Below are positions 46,776-52,320 of a DNA stretch of 64,000 bases, in pieces (position 1 is the stretch's first letter; each line of letters starts with the position of its first letter). The stretch spans positions 1 to 64,000 of the forward strand of contig NZ_JANHOK010000004.1 of NCBI RefSeq assembly GCF_026929975.1, in the 5' to 3' direction. Under the pieces are notes generated by a model that did no database searches, had not been told where the DNA came from, and saw only the letters and a list, made by a program, of their open reading frames with translations. The stretch comes from Bartonella sp. F02. GTDB lineage: Bacteria; Pseudomonadota; Alphaproteobacteria; Rhizobiales; Rhizobiaceae. A program made the translations under genes and the position numbers.

Positions 46776-46806
46776 CCAATTGAATTTTAATAACTCAAAT
46801 TGTAAA
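46776..46806 (+). promoter_or_regulatory. Upstream motif of the first kgtP-like gene
   Basis: CAATTGAATTTTAATAACTC followed by AAATTGTAAA. It is closely matched upstream of both other kgtP-like genes (48455-48483 and 50123-50150). The common core is an imperfect inverted repeat ATTGAA - about 10 bases - TTCAA(A)T. It lies about 85 bases before the start codon. A shared operator or promoter element is inferred. Confidence 0.6.
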
Positions 46807-46891
46807 TAGCTTTAAAAATTATTAAAGAAACAAATTAGACATACTTAAACATAATGCAACATAATAGAAAACTATATAAGGGATAACTCTA

Positions 46892-48199
46892 ATGGAGAAT
46901 GAAACACAAATAGTGCAAAGCGATACAAGAAAACGCGTTTTTTCTATCATATCTAGCGCATCAGGAAATCTTGTAGAATGGTATGACTTTTATGTCTATT
47001 CTTTTACATCGATTTACTTTGCTTCACAGTTTTTCCCATCAAATGGTGATGTTATTGCTCAACTTTTAAAGGCTGCAGGTGTTTTTTTTATTGGTTTTCT
47101 TATGCGCCCCATTGGTGGATGGCTCTTCGGTTTCATTGCTGATCGTTATGGTCGCAAACGCTCAATGCTTATTTCCGTTTTTATGATGTGCAGTGGTTCA
47201 TTTTTAATTGCCATACTTCCTACCTATGAAACGATTGGAGTTACTGCAGCGTTTCTTTTGCTTTTACTCAGAATGCTTCAAGGACTTTCCGTTGGCGGCG
47301 AATATGGAACGACTGCAACTTATATGAGTGAAATTGCTTTAAAGAATCACCGAGGCTTTTTTAGCTCTTTCCAATATACGACATTAATTGGTGGTCAACT
47401 TTTAGCAAGTCTTGTTATTTTCATTCTTGCACTTTATCTCACAGAAGATCAGCTCAAATCTTGGGGATGGCGCATTCCTTTTGCGATTGGAGGATTAGCA
47501 GCAATTGTAGCGATTTATCTCCGTCGGTCTCTTCATGAAACAACAACCAAAGAAGCACGTTCCAAAGCACAAGCTGGAAGCATTGCAGAACTTTTACGCA
47601 ATCACCGAAAAGCTTTTTTTCTTGTCATCGGTTTCACAGCTGGAGGATCGCTTACATTTTACACATATACAACTTATATGCAGAAATATCTGATAACAAC
47701 CGCTGGCTTTGATAAACATACAGCTACGACTATAATGACGGCAGCGCTTTTTGTATTTATGTTAATCCAGCCAGCATTTGGTGCTTTGGCAGATAAAATT
47801 GGAACCAGAAACTCACTCCTTATTTGGAGTTCTCTAGCAATCTTCTCTACGATTCCTGGGCTTAAAATAATTGGCAGTACTGATAATATGTGGGTTGCTT
47901 TATCCGTTATTGTTGGAATGCTTTGCGTTATAAGTTTTTACACATCTATATCTGGTATAGTGAAAGCAGAAATGTTCCCCGCTTCAATAAGAGCAATAGG
48001 AGTTGGATTATCTTATGCTATTGCCAATGCTCTCTTTGGTGGTTCTGCTGAATCTGTAGCTCTTGGATTAAAAGAAATGGGATATGAATCTACCTTTTAT
48101 GTTTACATCACTTGCATGATGATTATTGCATTCATTGCAGTTCTCATGATGCCAGATGCTCGAAAAACAGGATATCTCCAAAAAGATGAGATTGATTAA
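46892..48199 (+). CDS. kgtP: KgtP-like 2-oxoglutarate:H+ symporter, copy 1
   Basis: Major facilitator of the metabolite:H+ symporter (MHS) family, 435 residues, about twelve membrane helices. It follows E. coli KgtP closely: [18 protein letters not shown] (about residues 18-35), [62 protein letters not shown] and [19 protein letters not shown]. It has a GGGATAA site and its own terminator. Probable role is uptake of 2-oxoglutarate and related acids, inferred from the match. First of three tandem copies. Confidence 0.87.
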
Positions 48200-48214
48200 A
48201 TTTTATTCATTAAA

Positions 48215-48243
48215 CAAAAAAGCCCAAAAATTGGGCTTTTTTG
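48215..48243 (+). terminator. Terminator of kgtP-like copy 1
   Basis: AAAAAAGCCCAA, AAA loop, TTGGGCTTTTTT: intrinsic terminator 17 bases after the stop. Confidence 0.93.
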
Positions 48244-48523
48244 TAAGAAGTCAAGTGTAACGCTTTATGCATGCGTATCTAATATATTCTAACCGCTGTA
48301 TTTTTTTATCACTAGAGCTGACGACTCCATTAAATGATATTATTGCAGCTTTATCAAAACTACATCACATAAAATATCTTCGTTATACTCGTATTTATAA
48401 AACGTAGTTTGAATATTTTTTCTCCAATACCTTCACAGAAAATCATCAATTTATAATTGAATTTTGATGATTCAAATTATAAAGCTAAAAAATAAACATT
48501 ATACAGGGGGGGATCTTATTTCA
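48244..48523. other. Spacer between kgtP-like copies 1 and 2
   Basis: About 280 bases carrying the leader and motif of copy 2. No gene was seen. Confidence 0.5.
48451..48483 (+). promoter_or_regulatory. Upstream motif of the second kgtP-like gene
   Basis: AATTGAATTTTGATGATTCA followed by AATTATAAAG, with perfect TTGAA/TTCAA arms. It matches the motifs before copies 1 and 3 and ends about 40 bases before the start codon. The preceding CACAGAAAAT (48434-48443) is also found before copy 3. Confidence 0.6.
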
Positions 48524-49831
48524 ATGAATAATGAAAAAGTCTCAGTATCACACGATACAAAAAAACGTATTTTTTCTATTATGTCCAGCGCATCTGGAAA
48601 TCTTGTAGAATGGTATGATTTTTATATTTATGCTTTCACGTCCGTTTATTTTGCATCCCAATTTTTTCCTGCAGATGAAGATGTTGTTATTCAGCTTATA
48701 AAAGCAACAGGAATCTTTTTTGCTGGTGTTCTTGTACGCCCAATCGGTGGTTGGTTTTTTGGGTACATTTCTGATCGCTACGGCCGTAAACAATCGATGC
48801 TTATTTCTGTTTTCATGATGTGTGCTGGTTCATTCTTAATTGCTATACTCCCCACCTATGAAACCATCGGTGAATCTGCAGCTATTCTTTTACTTTTACT
48901 CCGCATGCTTCAAGGACTCTCAGTTGGTGGTGAATACGGAACGACAGCAACCTATATGAGTGAAATTGCTTTAAAAAATCACCGAGGTTTCTTTGGTTCT
49001 TTTCAATATACCACATTAATTTTTGGCCAACTTTTAGCGAGTCTCGTTGTATTTATTTTGACGCTCTATCTGACAGAATATCAATTAAGAGAATGGGGAT
49101 GGCGCATTCCTTTTGCTATTGGAGGATTTGCCGCAATTGTAGCAATTTATCTCCGCCGCTCACTTCATGAAACGACAACAAAAGAAAGTCGTTCTCATAA
49201 AACAGCTGGAAGTATTGTAGAACTTTTCCGGAATCATAAAAAAGCTTTTGTCCTCGTTATGTGCTTTACAGCCGGAGGTTCGCTTTCATTCTATACATAT
49301 ACAACTTATATGCAAAAATATCTGATAACAACAACTGGGTTCGATAAGCAGACAGCAACAACGATAATGACTGTCGCACTCTTTATCTTTATGTTAGCTC
49401 AACCTATTTTTGGTGCTCTAGCTGATAAAATTGGACCAAGGATTTCACTTCTTATTTGGAGTATATCGTGCATTCTGTTTATGGTTCCTGGGCTTAAAAT
49501 AATTGCTCATACTAATAGTACATGGGTTGCTTTATTCATTATTATTGGAGCTTTATGCATTATGAGTTTTTATACATCCATCGCAGGCATCATAAAAGCA
49601 GCACTCTTTCCCTCTTCAATACGAACTATGGGCGTTGGGTTAGCCTATGCTGTTGCCAATGCACTTTTTGGAGGATCCACTGAATATATAGCACTGAAAT
49701 TTAAAAGCCTTGGATATTCAACCGCCTTTTATTATTACTTAATTATCATGATGATAATTGCATTTATTGCGATTATCTTGATGCCAAATATTCGAGATGG
49801 AGGATATCTTAAAGACGATGAAATCCATTAA
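48524..49831 (+). CDS. kgtP: KgtP-like 2-oxoglutarate:H+ symporter, copy 2
   Basis: 435 residues, same family and length as copies 1 and 3. The ATG giving MNNEKVSVSHDTKK was chosen: it aligns with the other two copies and follows GGGGGGG; twenty codons of open frame upstream are excluded. It keeps the KgtP signature [14 protein letters not shown] but differs from copies 1 and 3 near residues 50-85 (ADEDVVIQLIKATGIFFAGVLV in place of [14 protein letters not shown]-type sequence). Own leader motif and terminator. Confidence 0.86.
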   Translation: MNNEKVSVSHDTKKRIFSIMSSASGNLVEWYDFYIYAFTSVYFASQFFPADEDVVIQLIKATGIFFAGVLVRPIGGWFFGYISDRYGRKQSMLISVFMMCAGSFLIAILPTYETIGESAAILLLLLRMLQGLSVGGEYGTTATYMSEIALKNHRGFFGSFQYTTLIFGQLLASLVVFILTLYLTEYQLREWGWRIPFAIGGFAAIVAIYLRRSLHETTTKESRSHKTAGSIVELFRNHKKAFVLVMCFTAGGSLSFYTYTTYMQKYLITTTGFDKQTATTIMTVALFIFMLAQPIFGALADKIGPRISLLIWSISCILFMVPGLKIIAHTNSTWVALFIIIGALCIMSFYTSIAGIIKAALFPSSIRTMGVGLAYAVANALFGGSTEYIALKFKSLGYSTAFYYYLIIMMIIAFIAIILMPNIRDGGYLKDDEIH

Positions 49832-49845
49832 ATTTTGATGTAAAA

Positions 49846-49875
49846 TAAAAAAGCCCAGTTTCTGGGCTTTTTTTG
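49846..49875 (+). terminator. Terminator of kgtP-like copy 2
   Basis: AAAAAAGCCCAG, TT loop, CTGGGCTTTTTTT: intrinsic terminator 15 bases after the stop. Confidence 0.93.
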
Positions 49876-50195
49876 TCATCATTAGATCAACAGTTTTACT
49901 TTAAAATTTATCTCAATTGGATAAAATATACTCAATTCTTTGACAGTAAAAAAATAATACAGCAACTTTTTCATTATAAAACAAGAAAACAATATCTGAA
50001 CTGCTTTGTTACAAACTTATGAAAAGCTAAATCATATAAACTAACTGAAGAATATCTTCTTTCATAAAAAGATAATTCAACGCATCTTCCAAAACAACTT
50101 CCACAGAAAATTGTTACCATATGATTGAACTTTAATAATTTCAATTATAGAGGTTAGAAGGAAACAATTATTGTTAAGGGAGGGGATATTACTTT
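49876..50195. other. Spacer between kgtP-like copies 2 and 3
   Basis: About 320 bases carrying the leader of copy 3, including the CACAGAAAAT element and the inverted-repeat motif. No gene was seen. Confidence 0.5.
50120..50150 (+). promoter_or_regulatory. Upstream motif of the third kgtP-like gene
   Basis: ATTGAACTTTAATAATTTCA then ATTATAG, with perfect 6-bp arms ATTGAA/TTCAAT spaced by ten bases. Same element as before copies 1 and 2, about 45 bases before the start codon. Confidence 0.6.
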
Positions 50196-51503
50196 ATGAA
50201 CAATAAAATAGATTCAGTATCAAACGATACAAGAAAACGTATCTTATCTATTATATCCAGTGCATCTGGAAACCTCGTAGAATGGTACGATTTTTACATT
50301 TATTCCTTTACATCAATTTATTTTGCATCACAGTTTTTTCCATCAAATGGTGATGTTATTGCTCAACTTTTAAAAGCTGCAGGTGTTTTTTTTATTGGTT
50401 TTCTTATGCGTCCCATTGGTGGATGGCTTTTTGGTTTCATTGCGGATCGTTATGGTCGTAAGCGTTCAATGCTCATTTCTATTTTTATGATGTGTGGTGG
50501 TTCACTTTTAATTGCTGTCCTTCCCACTTATGAAACACTTGGAGTAACTGCAGCAGTTCTTTTGCTTTTACTTCGAATGCTTCAAGGACTTTCAGCTGGT
50601 GGAGAATATGCTACAGTAGCGACTTATATGAGTGAAATTGCTCTCAAAAATCGCCGAGGGTTCTTTGGCGCTTTCCAATCAACCACACTTATTGCGGGAC
50701 AACTTCTGGCGACTCTTGTTGTATTTATTTTGACGCTCTATCTGACAGAAGATCAATTAAGAGAATGGGGATGGCGTATTCCTTTTGCTCTTGGTGGAAT
50801 AGCAGCAATTGTTGCTGTCTTTCTGCGTCGCTCACTCCATGAGACAGCTACTAACGAGAGTCGTTTATCTAAAAAATCTGGTAGCCTTGCAGAAGTTCTA
50901 CGCACTCATCGGAAGAACTTTTTTCTGGTTATCTTCTTTGCAGCTGGAGGATCTCTCACATTTTATGCTTGTACAACTTATATGCAGAAATATCTGATTA
51001 CAACAAGTGGATTTGACAAACATACAGCTACAACAATAATGACCATTGCACTCTTTGTTTTTATGTTGCTTCAGCCTTTATTTGGTATTTTAGCAGATAA
51101 AATTGGACTAAAAACATCACTCCTTTCTTGGAGTATATTATCTTGTATTTTCATACTTCCCGGTTTTAAAATCATTGGAAATACAAACAATATGTGGATT
51201 GCCTTATCAATCATTATTGGAATGCTCTGTATTATGAGCTTTTATACATCTGTCAATGGTGTTGTAAAAGCAGCCTTGTTTCCTTCTTCAATCCGTGCGA
51301 TGGGCGTTGGAGTATCTCATGCTATTGCTAATGCCCTCTTTGGCGGTTCAGCTGAATCTGTAGCCTTGGGATTAAAAGATATAGGACATGAATCTTTTTT
51401 CTATTTTTACATCATTGGTATGGTGATCATTGCATTTATTTCACTGCTCTTGATACCCAATATCCGAGATGGTGGATATCTTCAAAAAGATAATATCCGT
51501 TAA
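50196..51503 (+). CDS. KgtP-like MHS-family symporter, copy 3 (diverged)
   Basis: 435 residues with the same architecture. Its first third is almost identical to copy 1, including at DNA level; the region around residues 175-195 matches copy 2 instead. It departs from both at positions otherwise conserved with E. coli KgtP: AGGEYATVATYMSE for [19 protein letters not shown] for FQYTT, FYACTTYMQK for [10 protein letters not shown], and VSHAIANA for LSYAIANA. Changed substrate preference is plausible but unproven. GGGAGGGG site; own terminator. Confidence 0.83.
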   Translation: MNNKIDSVSNDTRKRILSIISSASGNLVEWYDFYIYSFTSIYFASQFFPSNGDVIAQLLKAAGVFFIGFLMRPIGGWLFGFIADRYGRKRSMLISIFMMCGGSLLIAVLPTYETLGVTAAVLLLLLRMLQGLSAGGEYATVATYMSEIALKNRRGFFGAFQSTTLIAGQLLATLVVFILTLYLTEDQLREWGWRIPFALGGIAAIVAVFLRRSLHETATNESRLSKKSGSLAEVLRTHRKNFFLVIFFAAGGSLTFYACTTYMQKYLITTSGFDKHTATTIMTIALFVFMLLQPLFGILADKIGLKTSLLSWSILSCIFILPGFKIIGNTNNMWIALSIIIGMLCIMSFYTSVNGVVKAALFPSSIRAMGVGVSHAIANALFGGSAESVALGLKDIGHESFFYFYIIGMVIIAFISLLLIPNIRDGGYLQKDNIR

Positions 51504-51520
51504 TTTTTTTACTTCTAGAC

Positions 51521-51550
51521 GAAAAAACCCAATTTTATTGGGTTTTTTTA
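51521..51550 (+). terminator. Terminator of kgtP-like copy 3, possibly bidirectional
   Basis: GAAAAAACCCAAT, TT loop, ATTGGGTTTTTTTA, between convergent copy 3 and the DUF2853 gene. Confidence 0.9.
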
Positions 51551-51570
51551 GTTATCATGCAATCAATTAT

Positions 51571-51876: not shown

Positions 51877-51989
51877 TTTGCATATCTCCGAAAATTTATA
51901 GTCATGCCCTTCAACCACATCCTATAATCTATAAATGATGAGAAGATTTAAATGTTCCCTCTTCCCCAAAGACTTTTATTCGTCTATAT

Positions 51990-52320
51990 TATAGAGGCTG
52001 GCTTGCCAGATATGGTAATAAATGGACAATGAAATAAACCCATTGGACCCGGGGGCGGTACCCGGCGCCTCCACCAAAATATAAATTTATGATTATATTT
52101 TAGTGGGGGCGAAATAGGATCGACAAGGGCGTAAAGATTGCTCTTTTACTCGGCATTGTACCACCGTTATCGGGCTAAATGAGTAGTTGCAAATGACAAC
52201 TATGCGGAAGCACGTCTCGCTGCTTAAAGTGGTGCGAAGGCTTCAAATTAAGTCTTAAACCGTCGCAGGTTTAAGCGGGGTTCGGAGGCACCTGGCAACA
52301 GAAGCCTTCACTATTTATGC
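51990..52320 (+). ncRNA. ssrA: Two-piece (circularly permuted) tmRNA
   Basis: Trans-translation RNA that rescues stalled ribosomes. The gene is permuted, as in other alphaproteobacteria: the acceptor piece comes first and ends CGCCTCC-A-CCA (52067-52077), with a T-arm CCGGG/CCCGG; a 27-base AT-rich spacer follows; the coding piece then starts GGGGGCG at 52105, which pairs with CGCCTCC. The tag frame, from the resume codon GCA at 52189 to TAA at 52227, encodes ANDNYAEARLAA. A helix GAAGGCTTC (52236-52244) / GAAGCCTTC (52301-52309) closes the pseudoknot region. Outer ends are estimated. Confidence 0.94.

Follow-up and report, generated by a model that had tools for sequence, protein, structure and literature searches.

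Have the three kgtP copies that stand in tandem in Bartonella sp. F02 diverged independently, or have they continued to exchange sequence with one another? An initial annotation of the 64,000-nucleotide stretch of DNA that contains them (hereafter, the window; positions 1 to 64,000 of contig NZ_JANHOK010000004.1, assembly GCF_026929975.1) proposed that the third copy is a mosaic produced by recombination among the paralogues. We compared the three genes with each other, with a no-recombination null model, and with the kgtP genes of other Bartonella genomes. The mosaic is best explained by gene conversion over short tracts within a tandem array of old date, to which we assign a probability of roughly 0.9.

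Three intact kgtP-like genes stand head to tail

The open reading frames of the window include three intact kgtP-like genes arranged head to tail on the plus strand, each encoding 435 amino acids: copy 1 (46892-48199), the slow, ancestral-like member of the array; copy 2 (48524-49831); and copy 3 (50196-51503), the mosaic. These are the three 435-residue MHS transporters originally described. For copy 2, the ORF tool begins a longer frame at a TTG at 48464, and the ATG at 48524 gives the 435-residue product. Pairwise identity among the copies is 76.2 to 77.6% for DNA and 72.0 to 77.1% for protein. The array is flanked on one side by thyA and on the other by a gene for a 115-amino-acid protein, both on the minus strand, and a tmRNA (51982-52318) lies beyond the latter. 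The host genome is a draft assembly of 1.44 Mb in 19 contigs.

KgtP is the alpha-ketoglutarate permease of the MHS (metabolite:proton symport) family. The three copies resemble it in passing the cutoff of the NF007710 model (NCBIfam, PRK10406; cutoff, 550 bits), with scores of 615.3, 576.7, and 558.9 bits for copies 1, 2, and 3, respectively; they are unlike it in that all miss the TIGR00883 (2A0106) cutoff of 443.45 (429.8, 416.4, and 409.2), and at 256 positions conserved in first or single copies of the gene, copies 2 and 3 depart from the conserved residue 19 and 23 times (copy 1, 5 times). The predicted structure of copy 3 is all helical (pLDDT 85.4, pTM 0.84), and the best 50 Foldseek matches to this model are all transporters or transporter-like proteins (e.g., SV2A, XylE, and GLUT3), in keeping with the MFS fold. 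While a phmmer search of solved structures with copy 1 returned nothing at 1e-10, a profile search recovered 31 distant sequences, among them phosphate, xylose, and glucose transporters and SV2. The dN between copies is 0.15 to 0.17 versus a dS of 0.86 to 0.88 (both NG86), which suggests purifying selection on all three. Copy 1 probably keeps the ancestral transport role, with alpha-ketoglutarate as its likely substrate by family name, and copies 2 and 3 appear to be specialized to some degree. Because of their changes at conserved positions, the substrates of copies 2 and 3 may differ.

Each gene is preceded by a palindromic element on the plus strand, which we read as a putative promoter or operator: 46780-46798 for copy 1 (18/19 matches to the pattern), 48457-48475 for copy 2 (17/19), and 50125-50143 for copy 3 (16/19). 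The pattern was derived from these same sequences, and these matches are therefore not independent; across the genus, 28 of the 131 upstream regions, among them these three, reach a score of at least 16, versus 1 of 655 shuffles. The initial annotation gave each copy its own terminator, and indeed a stem followed by a T-run stands after each gene on the plus strand, at 48214-48244 (−18.5 kcal/mol, z = −6.99), 49847-49873 (−15.9 kcal/mol, z = −5.37, folded over 49838-49882), and 51518-51553 (−14.4 kcal/mol, z = −4.50). All three terminator-like hairpins fold better than all 200 shuffles. A mechanical terminator scan lists one of these three places, and that one on the minus strand.

Copy 3 carries two short tracts nearly identical to its neighbors

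Against a background identity of 75 to 77% between copies, two stretches of copy 3 stand out. In the first, tract A, a core at 50340-50410 is identical to copy 1 (47036-47106, the likely donor) at 70 of 71 bases, while copies 1 and 2 mismatch at 21 of those 71. Over the wider segment for which near identity to copy 1 had been proposed (50337-50465, counterpart 47033-47161 in copy 1), copies 1 and 3 agree at 120 of 129 bases, copies 2 and 3 at 94, and copies 1 and 2 at 92. Copy 2 also differs here in protein, as had been noted, with S50A, F69V, M71V, L78F, and A83S in or beside the tract. In the second, tract B, positions 50718-50789 of copy 3 match 49046-49117 of copy 2 at 70 of 72 bases, and copies 1 and 3 share 54 of 72. 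The proposed likeness to copy 2 thus holds, with the copy 2 coordinates off by about 2 bases. All four intervals lie on the plus strand. The longest exact matches are 35 bp (copies 1 and 3) and 33 bp (copies 2 and 3).

Several further candidates are not claimed as tracts. Copies 2 and 3 are 85.6% identical at alignment columns 1 to 90, yet the next gene for copy 3 reaches 84.4%; copies 1 and 3 are 86.7% identical at columns 1111 to 1200, where copy 1 is nearer a gene of another genome (88.9%). These two copy 3-biased stretches, the 5′ 90 bases and columns 1111 to 1200, do not clearly go beyond conservation. Likeness between copies 1 and 2 at columns 361 to 510 and 571 to 660 was set aside, since an excess of that size between these copies arose in 34 of 500 simulations of the null model described below.

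The tracts exceed what divergence without recombination produces

Permutation of alignment columns within the triplet gave p values of 0.0029 (copies 1 and 3) and 0.0024 (copies 2 and 3) for the longest runs. In windows of 20 variable sites, none of 5,000 shuffles reached the observed value for copies 1 and 3, and likewise none for copies 2 and 3; the latter signal is weaker in larger windows (p = 0.014 at 30 sites and p = 0.040 at 40 sites). Permuting only the 154 codons with the same amino acid in all three copies gave no significant result (best p = 0.55 for copies 1 and 3 and p = 0.063 for copies 2 and 3), a test of low power because codons at which the copy 2 protein differs, about one-third of tract A, drop out. 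Among codons for the same amino acid in the pair compared (Met and Trp excluded), copies 1 and 3 use the same codon at 32 of 41 in tract A versus 194 of 316 overall, and copies 2 and 3 at 18 of 20 in tract B versus 177 of 295 overall.

As a no-recombination null, we simulated 500 alignments with AliSim on the unconstrained 35-row tree, with gamma-distributed rates and no site-specific or codon constraint. The observed excess was reached by the same pair in none of the 500 runs for copies 1 and 3 and in one for copies 2 and 3. When any pair was allowed to reach it, the value for copies 1 and 3 was attained in 4 of 500 runs and that for copies 2 and 3 in 1 of 500.

Within the tracts, paralogues are closer than any gene of another genome

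We assembled 131 open-frame kgtP genes from 61 genomes, comprising the F02 genome and 60 of 70 congeneric genomes; broken copies are not part of this set, nor are two single copies that lie on a separate contig, one in G049 and one in G069. The ten remaining genomes were left out, one (G031) in pieces and nine (G044 to G046, G056 to G060, and G062) with distant or broken matches among the matches listed. In both tracts the same-genome paralogue ranks first of 130 genes, 7 to 11 points above any gene of another genome. In tract A, the best partner of copy 1 is copy 3 (98.6%), and the next gene reaches 87.3% for copy 1 and 88.7% for copy 3; in tract B (columns 516 to 588), the best partner of copy 2 is copy 3 (94.5%), and the next gene reaches 84.9% for copy 2 and 87.7% for copy 3. 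Outside the tracts, the best match of each of the three copies among the 130 genes compared belongs to another genome, which is not the pattern of concerted evolution.

Trees of alignment segments (35 rows) show the change of topology that the initial annotation had offered as a check, with copies 1 and 3 and then copies 2 and 3 as nearest relatives. At columns 121 to 270, copies 1 and 3 form a clade (support 99/96), and the AU test does not reject the other pairings, including copies 2 and 3 (p = 0.152 each). At columns 487 to 600, copies 2 and 3 form a clade (99/97.5); here the pairing of copies 1 and 3 is rejected (p-AU = 0.0057), and that of copies 1 and 2 is not (p = 0.071). Copies 2 and 3 also group at columns 1 to 99 (97/82), with no alternative rejected, and the trees of columns 271 to 486, 601 to 1080, and 1081 to 1210 favor no pairing decisively. 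One consistent tree with uniform conservation, the outcome that would have spoken against a patchwork, is not what these data give: the nearest relative switches, and in the tracts a paralogue surpasses the orthologues.

Copy 1 is the probable donor of tract A

The mean identity of copy 3 to 55 first or single copies of other genomes is 79.7% in tract A versus 74.7% elsewhere. The corresponding values are 79.0 and 78.6% for copy 1 and 66.7 and 75.7% for copy 2. Inside tract A, copy 3 has no departures from the conserved positions; copy 2 carries the five substitutions given above in or beside the tract. The rise in identity and the conserved residues point to copy 1 as the donor, and the transfer of tract A was most likely from copy 1 to copy 3. 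In tract B, copies 2 and 3 have A180T and A190E in common, both against the conserved residue.

Exchange within arrays recurs occasionally in the genus

We scanned 106 same-genome paralogue pairs from 37 multicopy genomes in sliding 72-bp windows, calling a tract where identity was at least 90% and exceeded by at least 0.05 that to every gene of genomes whose rpoBC identity is at most 95%. Between-genome pairs were limited to those with whole-gene identity below 0.85, a filter that was not used for same-genome pairs. Tracts were found in 7 of 106 same-genome pairs versus 4 of 7,332 between-genome pairs; the former come from 6 of the 37 multicopy genomes (G006, G000 twice, G026, G018, G001, and G034), and the pair from G026 (0.907) would drop out under the 0.85 filter, leaving 6. 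At other thresholds for the excess, the same-genome and between-genome counts were 10 and 35 (0.02), 4 and 0 (0.08), and 1 and 0 (0.10). Exchange within arrays is therefore real but occasional, with most arrays lacking a tract at the main threshold.

The array is old, and its triplication may be independent

A recent triplication is disfavored. The dS between copies is high (about 0.86 to 0.88 by NG86 and 1.7 to 1.9 by YN00 for the two computable pairs), and both masked protein (p-AU = 0.009) and masked codon positions 1 and 2 (p-AU = 0.047) reject a clade of the three F02 copies. All nucleotides (0.20) and masked nucleotides (0.23) do not reject it, and neither did another run (0.26 and 0.09).

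In a tree of rpoB and rpoC from 60 genomes (rpoC is missing from G042), F02 is sister to the one-copy genome G047 (support 98), and the two stand beside a clade of 41 genomes that we take to be lineage 4 (support of the union, 89). At the places fetched, those 41 genomes carry three intact copies in 26 cases, two in 6, one in 6, and four in 3. G049 and G069 each have one further copy on another contig. Outside lineage 4 (n = 20, with G014 absent from the rpoBC tree), 18 genomes have one copy, G006 has two, and F02 has three. The array adjoins thyA in 56 of 61 fetched stretches, the exceptions being G003, G004, G014, G061, and G049, the last at a contig end.

In the gene tree, the lineage 4 second copies make up one old clade and the third copies another, and copies 2 and 3 of F02 belong to neither; the lineage 4 first copies form two classes that are at odds with the rpoBC tree. 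We constrained copy 2 to join the lineage 4 second copies, copy 3 to join the third copies, or both (AU test, 35 rows). All nucleotides reject these shared origins (p = 0.005 to 0.014), masked nucleotides are marginal (0.04 to 0.20), and masked codon positions 1 and 2 (0.19 to 0.35) and masked protein (0.23 to 0.54) do not reject them. A 51-row run with somewhat different constraints gave p values of 0.03 to 0.12 on the full alignment and 0.09 to 0.17 on the masked one. Of 23 residues that mark the lineage 4 third copies, copy 3 holds 7, copy 2 holds 1, and copy 1 holds none, and the diverged first copy of G006 holds 5; the 7 residues in copy 3 would favor either orthology or convergence.

The outcome of the AU tests thus depends on the type of data, all-nucleotide trees rejecting a shared origin and masked protein and codon-position trees not doing so. 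We lean toward a triplication independent of that in lineage 4, chiefly because the upstream DNAs of copies 2 and 3 are each other's best match (score of 103, versus 94 and 77 for their best outside partners). This likeness favors independence unless the spacers were also exchanged. A broader reading, to which we give somewhat less than even odds, is that the kgtP locus beside thyA underwent at least three parallel amplifications (in the lineage 4 ancestor, the F02 lineage, and G006), with copy 3 converging on the lineage 4 third copy while repeated gene conversion returned part of it to the ancestral sequence. Counter to this, the G006 first copy has its 5 of 23 residues without being a third copy, and masked protein and codon positions do not reject an origin shared with lineage 4.

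DISCUSSION

The paralogue excess, the simulated null, and the segment trees together support the original proposal that recombination among paralogues made copy 3 a mosaic. We envisage three KgtP-like MHS genes in an old tandem array, every one of them flanked by a promoter-like element and a terminator-like hairpin of its own. Homologous recombination would have copied stretches of about 70 to 130 bp from one paralogue to another. Tract A would have passed from copy 1 to copy 3, so that in copy 3 the second helix and the loop behind it have the conserved residues, and tract B would have been exchanged between copies 2 and 3, together with the nonconserved A180T and A190E. The exchange was presumably nonreciprocal (gene conversion), RecA dependent, and confined to a single chromosome, with no incoming DNA of the same species involved.

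That the tracts arose without exchange, as conserved stretches of protein under codon constraint or as runs due to chance, is very improbable. Tract A does code for a conserved region and the permutation of silent codons was not significant, but copy 2 mismatches copy 1 at 21 of 71 bases there, the best genes of other genomes reach only 87 to 89%, and the simulations, under a model with gamma rates and without site-specific or codon constraint, reproduced the excess for copies 1 and 3 in none of 500 runs and that for copies 2 and 3 in one. Less improbable, yet still unlikely, is a source in another cell of the same or a nearby species, delivered by a gene transfer agent or other transfer and recombined into the wrong paralogue; its odds overlap with those of the favored explanation, since incoming copy 1 DNA of the same species would give an identical sequence, indistinguishable from conversion within the chromosome. 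Exchange between species could also produce the two classes of lineage 4 first copies. However, the 128 genes compared from other genomes include no closer tract, and the excess is seen far more often within genomes than between them. An assembly chimera, which repeated genes in a 19-contig draft might invite, is scarcely credible: the usual assembly words are longer than 35 bp, and the longest exact matches are only 35 and 33 bp; single-base differences are present within the tracts, each of the three reading frames is open, and some other Bartonella genomes have similar tracts.

Short-tract conversion at this locus is a clear case, though an ordinary one, of a type of event that is already known. 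It shares with ectopic (interlocus) conversion of tandem paralogues the short near-identical blocks and the switch of nearest relative within one gene; the likeness is partial, with only two short tracts firm. With the copies otherwise diverging (75 to 77% identity), the exchange is patchy and does not amount to homogenization. In the same genus, the available part of a report on experimental evolution of Bartonella describes a 44-bp gene conversion that changed three bases to those of a homologous sequence at another chromosomal site (PMC11466379); that event was seen during the experiment, whereas the kgtP case is deduced from divergence. Long-lasting concerted evolution in prokaryotes, as set out in the portion available of another study (PMC6053082), involves recurrent gene conversion that leaves paralogues nearer each other than their orthologues; recurrent conversion between paralogues is common to both cases, but the kgtP copies are nearer each other in the tracts only. 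A literature search with most subscription papers outside its reach found no publication on the Bartonella kgtP array.

Despite a divergence of about 25%, the transporter paralogues of this small Bartonella genome have thus recombined in short tracts, and comparable tracts are present at the same locus in some other Bartonella species. Single trees of kgtP copies can therefore mislead. The array offers a natural test of repeated amplification and specialization of a nutrient transporter.

The kgtP array of G030, a compared Bartonella genome, contains two intact copies on opposite strands (kgtP-locus stretch L132), an arrangement which indicates that this array is partly inverted. In another genome, G006, the DNA between the kgtP copies includes fragments of thyA (stretch L117, 3626-3854 and 5659-6054), so the amplification unit probably took in part of thyA. 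The two intact copies of this genome are sisters in the kgtP gene tree (support of 100), which suggests that amplification in G006 was a separate event at the same locus.

Each of the three tandem kgtP copies in the window is preceded by a palindromic promoter-like element (46780-46798, 48457-48475, and 50125-50143), the start of which lies 67 to 112 bases upstream of the kgtP start codon. Such an element also precedes a number of kgtP copies elsewhere in the genus.

Columns 130-303 of the kgtP alignment, a conserved region, contain the best within-genome 72-bp windows of five genomes (G000, G018, G036, G067, and G068); in G067 and G068, these windows have no excess of identity above the genes of other genomes. 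This region is possibly a hot spot of exchange between kgtP copies, and its higher identity may contribute to this clustering of windows.

The first kgtP copies of lineage 4, a clade of 41 genomes, form two classes in the gene tree, a split at odds with the rpoB-rpoC tree. One genome, G065, encodes four kgtP copies (stretch L148), and its copies 1 and 2 represent one class each. The two classes could reflect either an old fourth copy followed by differential loss or exchange between species.
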